This document shows, one piece after another, positions 4,846 through 21,408 of a stretch of 21,408 bases of DNA. The DNA is taken from positions 1 through 21,408 of IMG/VR virus record IMGVR_UViG_3300034101_005665. One strand, 5' to 3'. Source of the DNA: a virus. The first letter of the stretch is position 1, and each line of letters opens with the position of its first letter. A program made the position numbers and the translations under genes. Under the pieces are notes generated by a model, which worked only from the letters and a program-made list of their open reading frames with translations, did no database searches and was not told the DNA's origin.

Positions 4846-5645
4846 TGTTTTATATAGTTGAGTATATGGTGCTTTTCAAGGGAATTTATTAGTTCATAAA
4901 TGCTTTTGTTTTGAGCATAATGATTGTGATGTGATTTATCTTTAGTAGGATCACTGTGTGGTAAATGATACAAGAAATGATCTACAATGTTACTTTTGGT
5001 TACATTCAATCCAAGTCTATGAGCACGGCAAATTATTTCATTATCCTCATAGCCCCATCCAATGAAAAATGGATTAAATCCATTAATTTGATTGAATGAT
5101 TTTTTGGTCATAATTAGACAACCTCCAACTGCTTTGGTGTTACCAAGCAAGGCAAATTCATTTGCATTGTTAGTTACAAGATGAAGATTTTTGATTCTGC
5201 TGTATAAATCTTCGACATTTAATGTATTGAGAAATTGTTTTTCACCTTGTTGAGTCATGTAGAAGGCACATCCATTGTAACCAATGAGACACTCAAGAGA
5301 ATCATTGTCTCTAGCGTCATTAATACATTCTAGTAACTTGTTGCAGTCTACAATGATGTCAACATCTAGGAAGATGAGAATATCTGTATCAGAATACTTT
5401 GCACCATGATTATATCCAGCACATTTTTTTACAAGATCATTGTTATATACTAGTGTATACTCATCTCTTGAATCAATGAAAGTAAAATCCAACAATTTTG
5501 TTTCTGCATCATCTTCAACAAAAACAAATCGACAATTTGGCAGATATTTCTTGTAATATTTGTAAATGGTCTTTACGTTTTTGATGCGTGATTCATTGTC
5601 GATTCTAAGATGACAGATGAATGTAATATCTTTGTCTTCAATCAT
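4839..5645 (-). CDS. GT-A glycosyltransferase with galactosyltransferase-like C-terminal domain
   Basis: A 268-residue protein. FLDVDIIVD at 93-101 supplies a DxD metal/nucleotide site (D94, D96). The C-terminal part reads GGCLIMTKKSFNQINGFN, then a W-G-Y-E-D segment and CRAHRLGL, which matches the Glyco_transf_7C/GT27-type block (GG-x-x-x-x-x-k-x-F-x-x-i-N-G-f-d followed by W-G-x-E-D) that shapes the acceptor site in beta-1,4-galactosyltransferases and polypeptide GalNAc-transferases. A His cluster follows (HFLYHLPHS). It overlaps the upstream GT2 gene by 4 bases and the downstream GT10-like gene by 7. Donor probably a UDP-hexose or UDP-HexNAc, inferred from the family only. Confidence 0.75.
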   Translation of the reverse strand: MIEDKDITFICHLRIDNESRIKNVKTIYKYYKKYLPNCRFVFVEDDAETKLLDFTFIDSRDEYTLVYNNDLVKKCAGYNHGAKYSDTDILIFLDVDIIVDCNKLLECINDARDNDSLECLIGYNGCAFYMTQQGEKQFLNTLNVEDLYSRIKNLHLVTNNANEFALLGNTKAVGGCLIMTKKSFNQINGFNPFFIGWGYEDNEIICRAHRLGLNVTKSNIVDHFLYHLPHSDPTKDKSHHNHYAQNKSIYELINSLEKHHILNYIKQW

Positions 5646-6459: not shown

Positions 6460-7305
6460 ATGGCAACTACATCTTTAGGAATAGATATCATACAGCTACC
6501 ACAAATTAACACTATACAAGGTGGTGATTATCTCATTGTTGAAACACCAGAAGGCACCGGCATCATTGATTTTGCAGATGTAGTCATTGATTTGGAACAG
6601 ACCTCCTTTGCACCAACAATTGTGGCACTAACTAGTGAAGTCATTGCATTGAGTGCAGACTTACAAGCACTAAAAACAGAATTATATGATGAGTTATCTT
6701 TGCTTTTAGTTGGTGATGTAGCAGTGTTTAAGAATATTTCACCTTTAACTGGTCTACAGGCTCTTGAAGGGACAGCAGTATCTTTACCTATAAACTACAT
6801 TGAAGTAAACAACATTTCAGAGCAACAAACTATAGGTCAATCTACAAGTATAGCTTGTGGTGATCTTACTGTATCTCAAGCTGCAAGTGCTTTTGTATTT
6901 GATGCAGGTACATACAAAGTAAGAGTTGATGCAAGAGTAACTTCTCTCTGCTCCACTCCAACATGGTTGCAACTTTATTTATATCAAGACACATTGCCAA
7001 TCCAAGTGCTGCAACATGGCAGCTCTTTTGTCGCTACTGATGCAAATCAAATAGGTAATTTATTCATTGATGGCTATTTTTATTTGTGCAGAACTTCACA
7101 GGTGAGCTTGCGTACAAATACTTATGGCAGATTTAATCTCGGATTACCCACTCAAACAATTTATTCAACTGCAAGTGCAAATAGAGCACTATCTGCAGAT
7201 TTGCTACGCAGCTTGCAGTTGAGCTCATGCAACATGAGCATGTATATTGAGAAAGTATCTGATGATGCAATTCCTGCCATCAACAAGCTCGGCGTCACAC
7301 TATAA
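6460..7305 (+). CDS. Probable virion structural or tail-fibre protein
   Basis: A 281-residue protein. Residues 11-40 (IQLPQINTIQGGDYLIVETP, then GTGIIDFADVV) follow the pattern of phage tail-fibre or baseplate N-termini: a QLP segment, a GxDYLIV-type strand and a G-T-x-x-x-x-F-A-D strand. A helical stretch (about 53-85) follows. The C-terminal half is beta-rich with GTYKVRVDARV and TWLQLYLYQDTLPIQV, similar in flavour to a C1q/TNF-type jelly roll, but I cannot confirm that fold. Codes on the plus strand behind a perfect TATAAATA box. Its 3' end overlaps the convergent kinase gene by 11 bases. No Shine-Dalgarno sequence is visible. Confidence 0.6.
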   Translation: MATTSLGIDIIQLPQINTIQGGDYLIVETPEGTGIIDFADVVIDLEQTSFAPTIVALTSEVIALSADLQALKTELYDELSLLLVGDVAVFKNISPLTGLQALEGTAVSLPINYIEVNNISEQQTIGQSTSIACGDLTVSQAASAFVFDAGTYKVRVDARVTSLCSTPTWLQLYLYQDTLPIQVLQHGSSFVATDANQIGNLFIDGYFYLCRTSQVSLRTNTYGRFNLGLPTQTIYSTASANRALSADLLRSLQLSSCNMSMYIEKVSDDAIPAINKLGVTL

Positions 7306-8041
7306 TTGAACCAGTAGTGGATAGCACTTCCTCTTTTTGCTGCTTGAGCAATTGCTCCACAGCTTCATGGGTAGGTTCACCATTAGAGTAAAGCTCTTCA
7401 CCAGCACTCAATGATTTTATCCATTGTTCGTCTGGATTTATAACTTCACCTTCAATGCTGATATAATTAGCAATCTCTACCAAGCGCTCATGACGAGCTG
7501 TACTGGTCAACTCAATCATAGCAGGCCTGTCTCGAGGATCAAACAAAGGAAATTTATCATTATAAATGAACTGCTTGTACACCATTTCAAAAATATTGTT
7601 TATTTCTCTGATGTACAGTTCATCTGTCTCCCGCATGTTGTCATTTTTGATAGCAATGCTTTCATTGAAAGGTAACCAAAAAATAATATCCAAATCCTTT
7701 ATAGACTCCCGCACAATGGGTATGCATTTGGCAATGAATTCATCGTCAATATCACCTTGCTGCTTTTCAGCAGCCCACATTGAATAGATGATGTTATCAA
7801 GCGGACACCTATCATAAACAACATTATCAGTTGGTGTCTTGCCTTTCATCTGCTCAACCATGAAGTCAAGAATCTGCTGCTGTCCATGCTGTGTTGCACC
7901 CTTGCTGTGACCCAAATCATTATTAACAATTACATCTCTGTAAGATGAATCAGGTGTGCTATACATATGCCACACTTGTAAGAAATCCCTAACAAGTGTG
8001 CTTTTGCCTGTATTGGCTGTGCCGCTAAATGCAATTCTCAT
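7295..8041 (-). CDS. P-loop nucleoside/nucleotide kinase-like protein (NadR/AAA_28 type)
   Basis: A 248-residue protein with a Walker A loop, FSGTANTGKSTL at 5-16. VVYDRCPLDNIIYSMW further on is a D-R-x-x-L-D segment typical of deoxynucleoside kinases and NadR-like kinases, where it binds the substrate side. RETDELYIREIN resembles a lid region. A C-terminal extension of about 60 residues, rich in Glu and Gln, follows the kinase core and contains LYSNGEPT. The start overlaps the stop of the small gene upstream by 4 bases (ATGA). Substrate unknown; nucleotide salvage for phage DNA synthesis is plausible. A 9-bp perfect inverted repeat lies early in the coding sequence (7971-8000). Confidence 0.7.
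   Translation of the reverse strand: MRIAFSGTANTGKSTLVRDFLQVWHMYSTPDSSYRDVIVNNDLGHSKGATQHGQQQILDFMVEQMKGKTPTDNVVYDRCPLDNIIYSMWAAEKQQGDIDDEFIAKCIPIVRESIKDLDIIFWLPFNESIAIKNDNMRETDELYIREINNIFEMVYKQFIYNDKFPLFDPRDRPAMIELTSTARHERLVEIANYISIEGEVINPDEQWIKSLSAGEELYSNGEPTHEAVEQLLKQQKEEVLSTTGSIIV
7971..8000. repeat. Perfect 9-bp inverted repeat early in the kinase gene
   Basis: Arms CACACTTGT (7971-7979) and ACAAGTGTG (7992-8000) with a 12-base loop. It lies 42-71 bases into the kinase coding sequence, overlapping the codons just after Walker A. It could fold as an mRNA hairpin; no T-run follows it, so it does not look like a terminator. Confidence 0.6.
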
Positions 8042-9574: not shown

Positions 9575-11383
9575 ATGAGCAAAAAGACGCGTTTGCGTAA
9601 GAGGCTTGCCGACATAGACCTAGATGAAAATGAGGTTGAACCAGTGGAATATTCATCTGCGCCGAGCAAGGGATTTGTAATCAAAAACAAATACAGCCTC
9701 AATGAGGTTCACAAAACATTCTTAGATTTGTGTTTGTATGAAAAAACAAAAATGGTGTTTGTGGATGGACCTGCTGGCACTGCAAAGGCTCAGCCGCTAG
9801 ATGCAAAAATACTGACACCACACGGATATACAACAATGGGTGAATTAAAAATAAATGATTTGGTATTTACGCAAAGTGGCAATACTACTAAGGTAGTGGG
9901 TATATATCCGCAAGGTATTAAGAAAATATTTAAAGTTTCGTTTTCTGACGGAACATCAACAGAGTGCTGTGATGATCATTTGTGGCTCACGCAGACATAT
10001 TATGATCGAACACATAGAGAAAAAATAAATGGAATACGTGCCAAACTCCCCAGACTGGGGACTGTTAAAACATTAAAAGAAATACGCAACACACTGCATG
10101 TTGGAAATTCTAATAATATTAATCACTCCATACCGGTGTGCATGCCTGTTAATTTTAACAAAAAAGAACATGTTATTCATCCGTATGTTTTGGGTGTGCT
10201 TCTCGGCGATGGATGTATAACACAGTCTGCAGTTTTTACTACAACGGATTCTGAAATTTTAGAGAAAATTAATGATTTATTGCCTGAAAACCATTCTATT
10301 AACAAAATAAAACATGACGATATTTCGTATAGAATTGTAGGTGATAAACAAAAAAATCTAGTACTTGAAGAGCTAAAAAGGCTCAACCTGCTGGGCTGCA
10401 ACTCTCTAACAAAATTTATACCTGATGAATATTTATACGATTCCACTGATAACAGGCTCCTATTGCTGCAGGGTCTCATGGATGCAGATGGTTGGGTGGA
10501 TAAACAAGGAGGTGTTGGTTTTAATTCAGTATCTCGTGAACTTGTAGAAGGTGTAAGATTTTTAGTTGAGTCATTAGGTGGATTATGCGGGTCTCTGAGA
10601 TTACATAACACATGGTTTACATACGCTGGTGTTAAAAAATCTGGCAAACCCTGCTATGCACTGACACTCAATTGTCCTGTAGCGCCGTTCTTATTATCTA
10701 GAAAAAAGAACCGGGTGCATCAAAGGCGCAAATATTTTCCTATAAGATACATAACTAATGTAGAAGAAGTTGGTGAAAAACAAGCTCAATGCATCATGGT
10801 TGAAGATGAATCACATTTGTATCTTACTAACAACTGCATTGTAACACACAACACATATTTAGCAGTTTTAGCTGCTTTAAATTTGCTGCAGCAAAAGAAA
10901 ATTAAAAAAATAGTTTACATTCGCAGCATTGTTGAATCAGCAGAAAAAAGCATAGGTGCTCTACCAGGTGAACTTGATGAAAAGTTCAAGCCTTGGTCGC
11001 TGCCTATGCTTGATAAACTGCATGAACTGTTGTCTGATGCTGCAACTGATGCATTGCTCAACAATGGCACAGTTCAATGCATTCCTGTGAACTTTGTTAG
11101 AGGCTTAACTTTTCATGATTCAGTAGTCATTGTTGATGAATCACAGAACCTTTCTCGCAAAGAATTGGTGTCAATTCTCACACGATTTGGTCACAACTCT
11201 CGCTTCATCATTGCTGGTGACCTCAAGCAAAATGACATTGCAAAATCAGGATACAAAGAAGTTTTAGAGCGATTCAATGATGAAGAAAGTGTGAATAATC
11301 ATATTCACTGCGTCCATTTTGGACAAAATGAAATTGTGAGATCGCACATTCTCAAGTTCATTGTGCGCAAACTGGAGTGTTAA
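9575..11383 (+). CDS. phoH: PhoH-like P-loop ATPase interrupted by an intein
   Basis: A 602-residue precursor. Exteins are residues 1-71 and 427-602; joined they give a 247-residue PhoH-like ATPase, the usual length for phage PhoH. The Walker A loop is split: VFVDGPAGTAK (61-71) ends the N-extein and TYLAVLAALN (427 onwards) resumes it, restoring GPAGTAKT. Walker B is VIVDESQN and the later IAGDLKQND is the third conserved block. The first 30 residues are basic then acidic and look disordered. PhoH is common in marine phages, but its role in infection is unsettled; RNA-related ATPase work is suggested by the family. The gene is on the plus strand between queE and queD and its stop overlaps the end of queD by 4 bases. 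Confidence 0.9.
   Translation: MSKKTRLRKRLADIDLDENEVEPVEYSSAPSKGFVIKNKYSLNEVHKTFLDLCLYEKTKMVFVDGPAGTAKAQPLDAKILTPHGYTTMGELKINDLVFTQSGNTTKVVGIYPQGIKKIFKVSFSDGTSTECCDDHLWLTQTYYDRTHREKINGIRAKLPRLGTVKTLKEIRNTLHVGNSNNINHSIPVCMPVNFNKKEHVIHPYVLGVLLGDGCITQSAVFTTTDSEILEKINDLLPENHSINKIKHDDISYRIVGDKQKNLVLEELKRLNLLGCNSLTKFIPDEYLYDSTDNRLLLLQGLMDADGWVDKQGGVGFNSVSRELVEGVRFLVESLGGLCGSLRLHNTWFTYAGVKKSGKPCYALTLNCPVAPFLLSRKKNRVHQRRKYFPIRYITNVEEVGEKQAQCIMVEDESHLYLTNNCIVTHNTYLAVLAALNLLQQKKIKKIVYIRSIVESAEKSIGALPGELDEKFKPWSLPMLDKLHELLSDAATDALLNNGTVQCIPVNFVRGLTFHDSVVIVDESQNLSRKELVSILTRFGHNSRFIIAGDLKQNDIAKSGYKEVLERFNDEESVNNHIHCVHFGQNEIVRSHILKFIVRKLEC
9788..10852 (+). mobile_element. Class 3-type intein with LAGLIDADG homing endonuclease in PhoH
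   Basis: The intein is residues 72-426 of the precursor (355 residues), from Ala72 to Asn426, followed by Thr427. Block A is AQPLDAKILTPHGY (72-85), block B ECCDDHLWLTQ (130-140), block F QCIMVEDESHLYLTNN (405-420) and block G CIVTHN (421-426). Position 1 is Ala, so it cannot act as the usual nucleophile. Trp137 two residues after the block B His, Cys406 at block F position 4 and Thr427 at +1 form the W-C-T set that defines class 3 inteins, in which the block F Cys attacks the N-terminal junction. The endonuclease has two LAGLIDADG motifs, LGVLLGDG (206-213) and LQGLMDADG (298-306), so it looks active. Insertion in the Walker A codons is a typical intein site. Confidence 0.92.
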
Positions 11384-12019: not shown

Positions 12020-13114
12020 TTATTTTTGCAACTGTGCAGGCATATATACAATACTATTACCGGATTTAGAAAAAAATCCTACGTCTTGATATAATACAGG
12101 CGGTGCCTGTGTTTGCTGCTTATTTGTTCCTGTAGCAAGATTGCCATAATCATAGTCAAGTAAACTTACAGTACATAAGTTGTTAAAAATTTTTGCACCT
12201 TCACTGTTTATTTTTTGTGTTGTTAATGGTTTTGCACCAGGCGCTGTTACAGCAGCGTTAATTGGCTGATTTGATGCAATATTAGGCTGTGTATTATATT
12301 GTTGCCGTATTTGAGCTGCTCTTGCAGCTTGGGTCACTGGTGCTGGCTGAATTTGGCCAGCACCAGTGATTGTAGTGGGCGCAGAAGTTCCTTGCATAGC
12401 TGCGGTTGTTTGAACGGCTGCTTCTAAAGTTAAATAACCATATTGCGTATGTAAAATATCGTCAAAACTTTCTGGTACTAATACAAAGCCACTGCTATTT
12501 ACTTGTATAGCTGTTATAACATATAGCTTATTATTGCCGAAATTTATAACTGCAACGTTGCCGCCGCCGAAAAATTTAGTACCTGTAATATCGCTTATAG
12601 GATATGTATTTGATCTATTAATTGTATTAGGCAGCGGTTTAATATTTGGATTAGCTGCAGCTGGCACTGGCTTTGCGCCAGCTGCAGCGTTAGGTTGTTG
12701 ATTTTGATTGGCACCTGCAGGAAACAATTGCTGTCCTGTATAAAGCATTGAGCCTAAATTTGCTGCACCTTTTAGAGCATTTCCTGCTAAACCCACACCT
12801 AAACCAACACCCTTATTTACCATTGTTCCAAGCGCTCCAGATACGCCTCCTTGCGCATTACCAACTGCTGATTGCATAAATCTTCTCATCCCAGTATTTT
12901 CCTGTTCAATAATTACTGCATTTTTTGGCAATGTTATAGTGTTGTTTTCATAGAAGAAATCAATGCTTTCATCAGTTTCTGCCAAAATATAGCCAACATA
13001 ACCATCATATTGCGCAAAATCCTCTGCATATTTTACATTGGGATCAACCCGAAGGCGCACTTTTTGCAAGCTTTTTTCTAAAATTGAGTTGAATTGATCA
13101 AAAAACTGAGACAT
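12020..13114 (-). CDS. Hypothetical, probably virion-associated protein with Ala/Gln/Pro-rich linkers
   Basis: A 364-residue protein that I do not recognise. The N-terminus [15 protein letters not shown] is an amphipathic helix of the sort seen at the start of phage head proteins. Residues about 37-68 ([11 protein letters not shown] then [13 protein letters not shown]) look like a small beta barrel. A Gly-rich hydrophobic stretch follows at about 87-125 ([20 protein letters not shown] then [13 protein letters not shown]), which could insert in a membrane or pack as a glycine zipper. Two Ala/Gln/Pro-rich linkers (about 130-160 and 240-300) flank a beta-rich domain with [28 protein letters not shown] lies 5 bases before the ATG. 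Two strong inverted repeats lie inside the gene. Confidence 0.6.
12334..12369. repeat. Perfect 14-bp inverted repeat inside a coding sequence
   Basis: Arms TCACTGGTGCTGGC (12334-12347) and GCCAGCACCAGTGA (12356-12369) with an 8-base loop. GC-rich in an AT-rich genome. It lies in the second Ala/Gln/Pro-rich linker of the 12020-13114 gene. No T-run follows on either strand. Confidence 0.85.
12654..12688. repeat. Perfect 12-bp inverted repeat inside a coding sequence
   Basis: Arms GCTGCAGCTGGC (12654-12665) and GCCAGCTGCAGC (12677-12688) with an 11-base loop, in the first Ala/Pro-rich linker of the 12020-13114 gene. It shares CTGGC...GCCAG next to the loop with the repeat at 12334. Confidence 0.85.
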
Positions 13115-13119
13115 GCAAT

Positions 13120-13127
13120 TATTTAGT
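13120..13127 (-). promoter_or_regulatory. Late-type box ACTAAATA before the 12020-13114 gene
   Basis: ACTAAATA, two mismatches from TATAAATA, ends 5 bases before the ATG at 13114. The same ACTAAATA occurs 6 bases before the gene at 15670. Confidence 0.4.
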
Positions 13128-13148
13128 AGAAATTGTTGCTTTTTACAT

Positions 13149-13154
13149 TATATT
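13149..13154 (+). promoter_or_regulatory. -10-like box TATATT upstream of folE
   Basis: TATATT ends exactly 6 bases before the folE ATG at 13161. No clear -35 is visible. It shares a 46-base divergent gap with the late-type box for the opposite gene. Confidence 0.35.
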
Positions 13155-13160
13155 AGCATC

Positions 13161-13808
13161 ATGGATAAATTAAAATACGCAAATTCGAATCTGCCACAAA
13201 AACAAGAGCAAAAGTATGAAATGATTGACAAGGCTGCAGCAGCATATGCAGACTTCATGGATGCTCTCAAGTTTGATTGGCGCAGTGATCCCAACAGTGC
13301 TGATACTCCACGTCGTGTTGCCAAGGCTTGGGTAAATGATCTCATTGCTGGGTGCTACACAGAACCGCCTAACATTACATCCTTTGATAATATTGATGGG
13401 TATGATGGCATGGTATGTCAAAACAATATTAAGGTTGTATCAATGTGCTCACATCATCATTTGCAGTTTACGGGTAAAGCTCATGTAGCATATATCCCCT
13501 CAAAAGAAGGTAAAGTTATTGGTCTTAGCAAACTTAATCGCATTGTTGATTGGTTTGCACGGCGCCCGCAAGTCCAAGAAGCACTAACTTCACAAATTTT
13601 CGAATACGTTGATAGGGTTTGCGAAAAGAATAACGGAGTTGCAGTAATGATCGAGTGCAATCATACATGTTGCAGCAATCGCGGAATAAGGCACGACTCA
13701 ACAATGCGTACGGCACGCGTAAGTGGCGCTTTTCATGATGAGAGTGGTGCAAGTAGAGCGGAGTTTTATAAGTTTATTGAGTTTGCACAAAATCGCAACC
13801 TCATGTGA
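13161..13808 (+). CDS. folE: GTP cyclohydrolase I (FolE), first step of 7-deazaguanine synthesis
   Basis: A 215-residue type I enzyme that opens GTP to dihydroneopterin triphosphate, feeding QueD. Zinc ligands are C96 and H99 in SMCSHHHL, and C170 in NHTCCSNRG, matching Cys110, His113 and Cys181 of the E. coli enzyme. [20 protein letters not shown] (121-140) is the family's most conserved block and RG at 174-175 follows the last ligand. The core spans the whole protein with no extension. I chose the ATG at 13161; an in-frame start at 13113 would add 16 non-family residues, overlap the divergent gene and include the promoter-like box. The 3' end overlaps the convergent retropepsin-like gene by 8 bases. 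Confidence 0.93.
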
Positions 13809-14202
13809 GGCTTGGATCAACCACGCTTTTCATTTGAGCAATGAAGTCTTTGCTCAATAGAACAGGTTCAGACATGCCTGTTCTATCAGAAATGGTAAAG
13901 GGTGTACCATGATACGTCTTGCCATTGACCGTCACGTCGAGCTTTATCACGTGACGGTCTTCTTTTAGTTGCGGGCCCTTGTTGATTGCCAACGTTCCAT
14001 TGCTGTTGGCACTGTGCTGCTTGTTGTTGCAAACAAATGTCACAATGCTTCCATCATCTTTGATGTCAGTGGCATGAAGAACGTTGTAGCCATCATTGCC
14101 TGTATCAGCTTTTGCTTTGAAATTGCCAACGCCGCTGATGTCTACGTCAATGGTTGGAGCAATGAGTTGCTTTTGCTCATAAAATTGTTGAAAGGTCTGC
14201 AC
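13801..14202 (-). CDS. Retropepsin-like aspartic protease (PF05618-type) with head-protein-like N-terminus
   Basis: A 133-residue protein with a GTG start. [15 protein letters not shown] (30-44) has the D-T-G catalytic triplet (33-35) of single-domain retropepsin-like proteases. [20 protein letters not shown] (83-102) and [16 protein letters not shown] (106-121) match the later blocks of the PF05618 family, historically called ATP-dependent zinc protease and related to RimB. Such enzymes work as dimers. The opening [10 protein letters not shown] resembles the MKTYQEFxAE start of T4 internal head proteins, whose leader targets them to the capsid. AATAAATA ends 5 bases before the GTG, fitting late expression. 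Three perfect inverted repeats lie in the 3' half, just beyond folE. Protease activity is inferred. Confidence 0.65.
13834..13886. repeat. Two adjacent perfect inverted repeats (8 bp and 10 bp)
   Basis: First: TTGAGCAA (13834-13841) and TTGCTCAA (13850-13857), 8-base loop. Second: ATAGAACAGG (13857-13866) and CCTGTTCTAT (13877-13886), 10-base loop. They begin 26 bases after the folE stop codon, within the convergent gene, and could help end the folE transcript. Confidence 0.7.
13927..13959 (+). terminator. Candidate terminator of folE: perfect 11-bp hairpin followed by TTCTTTT
   Basis: Arms GACCGTCACGT (13927-13937) and ACGTGACGGTC (13949-13959), 11-base loop, followed on the plus strand by TTCTTTTAG. 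A GC-rich stem plus a T-rich run is the form of an intrinsic terminator. It lies about 120 bases after the folE stop and inside the coding sequence of the opposite gene, since the two genes overlap and leave no other room. Confidence 0.4.
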
Positions 14203-16190: not shown

Positions 16191-16591
16191 CTGTACTGCT
16201 TTAGCTTACCAAGCCTGCAATTGATTATTCCGTTGTAGTATTCTGATGTTAATAGCACTTGTTTGAATATTTGTTCTTGAATTTCATAGTAACCCATCTC
16301 CCATTTGCTGTTGCAGAACCGTATAATTTCAAATGTAAAATTATCTTTGCCTATTTTTGCAATATCATCATTCAATTCATTGCAACTACCAGTGTACGTC
16401 ATCCAATCTGTTTCTTTAATTACTGATACTCTATTCTTTTTGCCTTTGCGCAATGGTTTCTTACGCTTAGATTTGCATTGTTTCTTTCCAATGTATTTGC
16501 GATTGTTGGTTTTATTTGTTATTAAATAAATAAAACCATAATATTCTTGAGGAATCTCAATATTACATGTCCAATGTCCTAAACTACTCAT
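16187..16591 (-). CDS. GIY-YIG-like endonuclease
   Basis: A 134-residue protein. YYGFIYLITNKTNNRKYIGK (17-36) matches the GIY-YIG opening: FIYLI stands for GIY and YIG is at 33-35, 10 residues after. A Lys/Arg-rich stretch (36-54) follows, then DWMTYTGSCNELNDDI and KIGKDNFTFEIIRFC, and YYEIQEQI (101-108) offers the metal-binding Glu. This arrangement is known from phage-encoded GIY-YIG nucleases, some of them homing enzymes. The usual Arg after YIG is not obvious among the many basic residues. No intron or split gene is seen beside it. The 54-base gap before it (16592-16645) shows no strong promoter box. Confidence 0.65.
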   Translation of the reverse strand: MSSLGHWTCNIEIPQEYYGFIYLITNKTNNRKYIGKKQCKSKRKKPLRKGKKNRVSVIKETDWMTYTGSCNELNDDIAKIGKDNFTFEIIRFCNSKWEMGYYEIQEQIFKQVLLTSEYYNGIINCRLGKLKQYR

Positions 16592-20287: not shown

Positions 20288-21408
20288 AACAAGTCAATTT
20301 TAAGAAAATATCAATAACCAACTTCCTCTCCATTGGCAAAGAGCCTGTTTCAATTGATTTTGAAACAGGCACCAACATCATAACAGGTGTAAACAAGGAC
20401 ATGATGGATAGACGCAATGGTGTAGGCAAATCAACAATTGCTGATGCATTGTATTTTGCAATTTTTGGCACAACCATGCGTGAACTCAAAAAAGATTTAA
20501 TCATCAACAATTACACCAATGCAACATGCAGTGTAACGCTTGTGTTTGATGTCATTGATATTAACAACATCAATGAGTATAAAGTTGTGCGCACGCTCAA
20601 TCCAAGCAAATGCTTTTTGCTTAAAAACAATGAAGATGTCACAAGAGATTCCATTGTCAACACCACTCAAAGCATTTGTGATTTAATTGATGCTAGTCCC
20701 AGCATTTTTAAAAATTGCGTAATAATGACATTGAGTGAAACAGTGCCATTCATGGCACAGAGCAAGATTGACAAGCGCAAATTCATTGAAAACATTTTTA
20801 ATCTGCAGGTGTTTAGCAAAATGCTTGCACACGTCAGAGAAGAACACAATGAGTACAAAAAGAAGTATGAGATGGAATTATTCAAGTACAATGAAATCTC
20901 TGCAAGCATAAAGAAACTACAAGAGCAGCGCAATGCCATCATCAGAGAGAGACTCAGCAAGGTGGCACAGTTGGCTGAAAGAAAGCTCAAAAGCAATGAT
21001 GAGCTAGCATCACTTCAACAGCAACTGGATGTTTTATCACCAGTCAACTATGATCAAATAAATGAAACAATTCAAGAGTTGGAAGAATGCAAAAACAAAT
21101 GCCAGGAAAAAATCGATGCTTTGTTGCAAAAAATTGCTGTTGAAGAAATTCAACTTAAAAATTTAAAAGAGCAGCACAGCAATGCTGGTACAAATAATGA
21201 TGTGTGTCCCACTTGTCTTAGAGTTGTAGATGCAACTGATGTGAATCACATTGAAGCAGAAAAGCAAAAATTAACAAGTGCAGTCAATGAGTTGAAGCAA
21301 TTGCTTGAGGTGGATAAAAAAGACTTAACTCAGCAAAAAAACAACAAAGATTCCGTCAAGCACTTCATCAGCAAATACAATGCAAAAATAAATCAAGGCA
21401 AAGTTGAT
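20284..21408 (+). CDS. 46: T4 gp46-like SbcC/Rad50-type ATPase (C-terminus cut by window edge)
   Basis: Open for 375 codons from the ATG at 20284 to the window end, so the protein is incomplete (T4 gp46 is 560 residues). The N-terminal ATPase lobe opens with ISITNFLSIGKEPVSIDF; Walker A is NGVGKST at 45-51, preceded by an unusually long NKDMMDRR insertion between the usual Gly-x-Asn and the loop. From about residue 190 the sequence becomes a heptad-rich coiled coil that reaches the zinc-hook CPTC at 308-311, where two gp46 subunits meet, and the returning coil follows. The Walker B and signature motifs lie beyond the edge. It overlaps gp47 by 4 bases (ATGA), so the partners are made together. 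Confidence 0.92.
   Translation, partial: MKQVNFKKISITNFLSIGKEPVSIDFETGTNIITGVNKDMMDRRNGVGKSTIADALYFAIFGTTMRELKKDLIINNYTNATCSVTLVFDVIDINNINEYKVVRTLNPSKCFLLKNNEDVTRDSIVNTTQSICDLIDASPSIFKNCVIMTLSETVPFMAQSKIDKRKFIENIFNLQVFSKMLAHVREEHNEYKKKYEMELFKYNEISASIKKLQEQRNAIIRERLSKVAQLAERKLKSNDELASLQQQLDVLSPVNYDQINETIQELEECKNKCQEKIDALLQKIAVEEIQLKNLKEQHSNAGTNNDVCPTCLRVVDATDVNHIEAEKQKLTSAVNELKQLLEVDKKDLTQQKNNKDSVKHFISKYNAKINQGKVD
20343..20370 (+). repeat. Perfect 10-bp inverted repeat early in the gp46-like gene
   Basis: Arms GCCTGTTTCA (20343-20352) and TGAAACAGGC (20361-20370), 8-base loop, 60-87 bases into the coding sequence. It could fold in the mRNA near the start of translation. No T-run follows. Confidence 0.8.

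Follow-up and report, generated by a model that had tools for sequence, protein, structure and literature searches.

The 21,408-base stretch analyzed here (the window; 36.5% G+C) is a virus record that represents a 21-kb fragment of a T4-like phage. Five short perfect inverted repeats, H1 to H5, lie in it within two minus-strand open reading frames (ORFs), one of 364 amino acids (aa) and one encoding a protease-like protein of 133 aa, which flank the plus-strand gene folE. All five were located at the positions and with the arms and loops given in the initial annotation, which had described them as a cluster of GC-rich stems around folE. The genes folE and the protease-like gene are convergent and overlap by eight bases (13801-13808). 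The features of the region are listed below, with arm and loop lengths in nucleotides (nt).

12020-13114, minus strand: ORF of 364 aa with a conserved N-terminus and a hypervariable Ala/Pro/Gln-rich remainder; holds H1 and H2
12334-12369: H1, two perfect 14-nt arms about an 8-nt loop, within the 364-aa ORF
12654-12688: H2, two perfect 12-nt arms about an 11-nt loop, within the same ORF in its Ala/Pro-rich linker
13161-13808, plus strand: folE (GTP cyclohydrolase I; PF01227, E 2e-49), start set from the relatives, the ORF being open from 13113
13801-14202, minus strand: Zn_protease-family ORF of 133 aa (PF05618) with a GTG start, convergent with folE; holds H3 to H5
13834-13857: H3, two perfect 8-nt arms about an 8-nt loop, starting 26 nt past the folE stop codon
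13857-13886: H4, two perfect 10-nt arms about a 10-nt loop, retained only among close relatives
13927-13959: H5, two perfect 11-nt arms about an 11-nt loop, kept across all six records
13960-13968, plus strand: T-rich tail TTCTTTTAG, 3' of H5 on the folE strand; TTCTTGTAA in the relatives G003 and G005

The arms of H5 contain 64% G+C. For H3 (38%) and H4 (40%), i.e., two of the five stems, the description as GC-rich did not hold, given the G+C content of the window. H1 and H2 are located in the hypervariable linker of the 364-aa ORF. Searches of this ORF against Pfam and PHROG gave no match, phage relatives were looked for and none were found, and its C-terminal half had no match in five related records. 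The ORF and its orthologs share a conserved N-terminus of about 75 residues, followed by low-complexity sequence that differs in each lineage, and are located between folE and a queD-like gene.

The related records were recruited via the protease-like protein together with its neighbour. They comprise L003 (G001), L004/L002 (G002), L005 (G003; 203.8 kb), L006 (G004; 50.9 kb) and L034 (G005; 224.7 kb). In the genome-contig collection, no relatives of the protease-like protein were confirmed. Gene sets were obtained as greedy longest ORFs and were not curated; some stems counted as coding in G003, G005 and the comparison phage XG4 may therefore sit in false ORFs.

The number of stems in the window was compared with that in shuffled sequences. 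Six stems with arms of at least 10 and loops of 3-12 were observed, as compared to a mean of 0.47 in 300 dinucleotide shuffles, none of which reached six; an arm of at least 14 arose in one of these 300. Codon shuffles, which preserve the protein and the codon usage, gave 0.61 stems with arms of at least 10 and a maximum of three (n = 100). Thus, the proposed excess over chance was borne out, also with protein and codon usage fixed, and the codon-shuffled controls suggested in the initial annotation did not match the observed number of stems. When the two genes concerned, which were chosen post hoc after the stems were known, were codon-shuffled 3000 times each, the 364-aa ORF acquired an arm of at least 14 in 16 shuffles and two arms of at least 10 in 3, while the 133-aa ORF acquired an arm of at least 11 in 7 and two arms of at least 10 in none. 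Four of the six arms of at least 10 in the window fell within 1592 nt, a clustering that was only moderately unusual (P = 0.02). Two 11-bp stems were present in the window beyond those listed initially, and a shorter one was followed as well.

16507-16538: perfect 11-bp stem within the segE-like ORF; not retained in G003/G005
20343-20370: further perfect stem, arms 11, with three window-specific arm substitutions, all pair-making, relative to sister and outgroup
7971-8000: 9-bp stem (12 bp in the sister G001) in a kinase-like ORF

The surplus was present genome-wide in the relatives and is hence not tied to folE. Coding stems with arms of at least 10 numbered 23 in G003 (3.4 expected from codon shuffles), 7 in G004 (1.0), 6 in G001 (0.6) and 18 in G005 (3.9). 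A surplus particular to the folE region was ruled out by this excess across the window and its relatives. Other phages were sampled as parts of 48-100 kb each. Six of them were near expectation (T4, 4 vs. 2.1; Mosig, 3 vs. 1.9; P-SSM2, 2 vs. 3.0; lambda, 0 vs. 0.5; phiKZ, 0 vs. 0.7; S-WAM1, 1 vs. 0.5), with 10 stems in the pool as compared to 8.6 in codon shuffles. In a seventh, Pseudoalteromonas phage XG4, the surplus was present (22 vs. 2.8; in ORFs of at least 150 aa, 13 vs. 1.8, 4 of the 13 being one repeated hairpin of gene starts). Short exact inverted repeats are thus overrepresented in the genes of this phage group across the genome, and the surplus is a property of some phages, this group included. 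In XG4, positions 50001-100000 (L062) show many TGATGATTCTATT hairpins at the beginning of ORFs, and the series is repeated there in inverted order.

The exactness of the pairing was analyzed across G003, G005 and the window in those ORFs that reach 150 aa (n = 341), a size limit chosen because smaller ORFs may be false. Relative to codon shuffles, perfect 10-bp windows were 5.6-fold enriched (52 vs. 9.3 expected). The enrichment was 1.78-fold for windows with one sense-strand G-U pair (41 vs. 23.0), 1.94-fold for those with one A-C (48 vs. 24.7) and 1.5-fold for those with another single mismatch (154 vs. 105.1). These counts refer to windows, so that a long arm is counted repeatedly; the same ORFs hold 34 stems with arms of at least 10. 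RNA structure on the sense strand tolerates G-U but not A-C. Since G-U was not preferred over A-C, the surplus is one of exact DNA complementarity, not of RNA pairing with G-U.

The sister genomes G003 and G004 (3.7% divergence over 48.6 kb) were compared at 28 stems, stems incompletely covered by blastn alignments having been dropped. Two exact loop inversions were found. The first (tttgt vs. acaaa) lies between identical 11-bp arms outside called ORFs (G003 40696-40722), and the second (tgta vs. taca; 46611-46636) lies in an 820-aa ORF and is accompanied by a compensated pair. Changes on both sides that left the bases paired were seen at 4 of 257 pairs, as compared to 0.12 expected. A 13-bp stem (71113-71143) differed by one compensated pair between G003 and G004 and kept only 5 of its 13 pairs in G005; long-term selection is thus not required. 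In the window, two of the three arm substitutions of stem 20343-20370, identified against G001 and G005, are adjacent. Arms becoming exact on an identifiable branch were thus seen for this stem, while H1 had no aligned relative, H2 was too diverged and H4 was identical in the sister.

Template switching would account for such changes. During replication, the polymerase would briefly copy the opposite arm of an imperfect palindrome, by which the arms would be made exact complements and the loop would sometimes be inverted. Palindromes of this kind would arise and vanish, and no function would be needed. H1, H2 and H4 would by inference belong to this class.

The fate of the stems in the relatives was followed by counting retained pairs in orthologs, with gapped ortholog rows dropped and H5 rows left out of the pools so named. 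Pooled without H5, a fraction of 0.593 of the pairs was retained from G003 to G005 (30 stems), with 0.503 expected from the squared identity, and 0.681 from G005 to G003 (17 stems), with 0.471 expected. For four window stems in G003, retention was 0.439 as compared to 0.512 expected. The window stems at 16507, 7971 and 20343 lost pairs in relatives. H4 kept all 10 pairs in G001 and 9 in G002, but 5, 5 and 7 of 10 in G003, G004 and G005, respectively. H1 had no aligned counterpart in the relatives. Aligned relatives kept at most 2 of the 12 pairs of H2, and the G001 alignment differed at 7 arm and 3 loop positions. H3 was identical at 24 of 24 bases in G005 and kept 7 of its 8 pairs in both L005 and L006 (alignment read by eye). 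Most stems decay, and some are perhaps selected. Loss of pairing while the protein is kept, which had been named in the initial annotation as one of two refuting outcomes, thus occurred for H4 in three relatives, and it did not occur for H3 (8 of 8 or 7 of 8 pairs) or for H5 (all 11 pairs in each of the five relatives). The observation of the stems stands. The idea that they form one local cluster of structured elements is not upheld: apparent mutational palindromes are mixed here with one or two stems that are conserved, and the surplus extends over the genome.

H5 was retained in all six known records, with a compensated pair and invariant stem codons, at identities of its gene of 0.97 to 0.70. 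Its outer pair, G-C in the window as well as in G001 and G002, is A-T in G003, G004 and G005. The codons of the stem were invariant at 6 of 6 positions across the six sequences, as compared to 28 of 88 other protein residues (Fisher p = 0.0017); for the whole hairpin, the count was 7 of 9 vs. 27 of 85 (p = 0.010). The invariant stem codons include ACG, which accounts for 5.9% of threonine codons. A degenerate scan of the viral collection for the H5-encoded peptide returned five contigs, all of them already-known records with the exact H5. On these comparisons, H5 is a good candidate for a conserved functional site.

With roughly even odds, H5 is predicted to be an intrinsic transcription terminator for folE that lies antisense inside the convergent protease-like gene, and H3, directly past the folE stop codon, may assist it. 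Since the end-to-end overlap of the genes leaves no intergenic room, a folE terminator would be placed inside the neighbour. H5 begins 119 nt past the folE stop codon and folds on the folE strand with -23.5 kcal/mol (z of -4.1). Its tail contains T at 6 of 8 positions in the window and G001 and at 5 of 8 in G003 and G005, interrupted and without a pure T run. Terminator-like stems aimed with the convergent gene were found in 6 of 104 in-gene zones by close convergent ends and in none in the opposite direction, while codon shuffles gave a mean of 0.83 and none of 100 reached six. The six zones were H5 in four records, G005 43697-43724 (with seven T) and G005 94326-94351. The density of stems with arms of at least 10 was higher near close convergent gene ends (2 in 5.8 kb in G003 and 3 in 8.7 kb in G005) than in the remaining coding sequence (20 and 14 stems, respectively), although the stems are few. 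Over all 110 coding stems, T-rich tails were antisense in 26 cases as compared to about 14 expected (background 0.124), a count that is inflated by repeated orthologs and was not relied on. H5 is terminator-like, and not a proven terminator. Elsewhere, one hairpin (GCGCTGGAG gattgcta CTCCAGCGC) with T-rich sequence behind it occurs in identical form in three records (G003 36065-36090 and 37925-37950; G004 5011-5036 and 6871-6896; G005 85413-85438) and looks like a repeated terminator.

The joint explanation favored here, with a probability of about 0.6, is that most stems are products of replication template switching and that the kept stem H5 is the intrinsic folE terminator. Several observations weigh against it. 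First, no loop inversion was seen among 11 stems compared between the window and G001, nor at H1-H5, and two of the four double compensated changes between G003 and G004 sit in otherwise scrambled stems. Second, XG4 shares the surplus, which is therefore not exclusive to this group. Third, pooled retention was somewhat over expectation, and some further stems may be selected; template switching can also make compensated pairs, so that the one compensated pair of H5 is weak proof of selection. Fourth, the six zones correspond to only three independent loci because H5 was counted four times. The 11-nt loop of H5 is long for a terminator, with the minimum-energy fold closing to a 6-nt loop with a bulge, and the tail is partly dictated by Lys/Glu codons. 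A consensus terminator scan (loop 3-8) did not list H5, which is why it is called terminator-like only. Finally, G002 carries a GIY-YIG-endonuclease-like ORF between folE and the protease-like gene, i.e., before H5, yet H5 is intact; this insertion neither supports nor excludes the terminator reading.

For H1 and H2, it is less likely, if still to be reckoned with, that they are by-products of low-complexity Ala/Pro/Gly coding sequence and that no special process made them. GCN codons yield self-complementary runs, H2 lies in an Ala/Pro-rich linker, and the Ala-rich linker of the G005 ortholog holds a palindrome distinct from these (G005 122669-122700). Arms of 14, which are otherwise rare, appeared in the 16 of 3000 shuffles of this gene mentioned above; two arms of at least 10, as observed, appeared in just 3, though this gene is one of about 27. 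An extension of the favored explanation is more doubtful, namely that the group has an unusually high rate of template switching, by which in-gene palindromes would be steadily formed, perfected, loop-inverted and lost, some being retained as antisense terminators with which overlapping convergent genes could end within the coding sequence of one another.

It is improbable that all stems are selected messenger RNA (mRNA) structures acting in sense transcripts, for instance through pausing, stability or translation control. Each stem gave a strong coding-strand fold (z of -3.3 to -7.3), H3 and H5 are conserved, and the slight excess of pooled retention would fit. From the comparison of G-U with A-C, sense mRNA structure under selection was rejected as the principal cause, H4 and the three further window stems lose pairs in relatives, and H1 and H2 lack counterparts. 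Rfam gave no match at gathering score in the window; a transfer RNA reading was likewise rejected.

The main rival to the terminator, and an equally improbable one, is a DNA site at H5, whether an operator with dyad symmetry, a nuclease target, or a site for replication or packaging. In its favor, the symmetry of the DNA is exact, has CACGT/ACGTG cores and does not vary among the six records, each of which has it at one place. H5 is, however, a single copy per record in the middle of a gene, with no similar copy elsewhere, and a terminator agrees better with the T-rich tail on the folE strand and with the recurrence of this architecture at two further convergent loci.

In-frame copies of a mobile palindromic element are very improbable: short in-gene palindromes resemble REP or RPE elements in outline, but a family of this kind was refuted within the six records searched by the lack of second copies, as H1, H2 and H4 had none at up to 6-7 mismatches, H5 had only orthologs, H3 had, besides orthologs, only weak 6-mismatch matches in G005, and stems within one genome mostly share no sequence.

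Among the other genes of the window, those for a UvsY-like protein, a late sigma factor, a segE-like GIY-YIG protein and PhoH are T4-like; a QueD-like gene is present besides folE. Phage matches of the ResIII/helicase ORF include uvsW; the best among the matches listed were less than 30% identical, and thus no close named relative was seen. The PhoH gene (9575-11383, 602 aa) carries an apparent LAGLIDADG intein, read by eye, in its nucleotide-binding loop (GPAGTAK ... THN TYLA), and PhoH of L003, L004 and L005 is 247-258 aa long without the intein-like insert. The segE-like ORF (PF19835; 16187-16591) has counterparts at the corresponding position, next to the uvsY-like gene, in L003, L005, L006 and L034. 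The homing-endonuclease-like ORF between folE and the protease-like gene was recognized by eye at L004 2156-2809 and is absent from the other records. By eye, folE seems to have been swapped between lineages: in its middle part, folE of the window (13161-13808) resembles that of L004 and L005, while folE of L003 (5395-6042), otherwise the nearest relative of the window, resembles that of L034 (5203-5850).

These phages offer a clean natural case for weighing mutation against selection in phage-gene hairpins, since numerous exact palindromes that decay occur side by side with a few that are conserved, and single events can be recognized by their loop inversions. H5 suggests where compact phages may place terminators when convergent genes overlap. 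A warning also follows: where template switching is common, a single compensated base pair is weak proof of RNA structure.

Most stems are ordinary in kind, being apparently palindromes of the known template-switch type, though the surplus is strong in degree. A small excess of close inverted repeats with arms of 6-9 bp in protein-coding DNA was reportedly found in an earlier study and attributed to template switching. A surplus of close inverted repeats is common to both cases; here, it concerns arms of at least 10 and is about five-fold or more over codon shuffles. In the parts of the literature covered by the search, no published report on in-gene palindromes of this phage group was found.

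The association of quasipalindromes with template switching is credited to Ripley 1982, in phage T4 rIIB and yeast (PMC7202029), and arm homogenization and spacer inversion were described in yeast coding genes (PMC8604942). The stems analyzed here resemble quasipalindrome correction in their exact arms, the loop inversion between sister genomes and the multi-base changes that create pairs, all within coding sequence. They differ in that they come from sequence comparison of uncultivated phages only, with a genome-wide surplus of long arms, and in that H1-H5 show no such event. It has been argued that the same template-switch process makes and repairs RNA stems (PMC8794818). An excess of palindromes in prokaryotic genomes was described with reference to Ladoukakis and Eyre-Walker for the template-switch reading (PMC4060949); the same source states that, in one comparison, coding regions were generally normally represented for inverted repeats, and thus the literature is not uniform on inverted repeats inside genes. 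ORFs of E. coli carry such repeats less often than controls (PMC6060812).

Perfect inverted repeats with both arms coding are also known as the coding palindromes of Nematomorpha mitochondria (PMC6649704), which are much longer (up to 284 bp) and belong to another kind of genome. H5, finally, is like an intrinsic (Rho-independent) terminator in its GC-rich stem followed by a T-rich tail, its place downstream of folE on the folE strand and its conservation. It is unlike one in its loop of 11 nt (6 when folded), in a tail that holds no pure T run, and in its site inside the coding sequence of a convergent gene.

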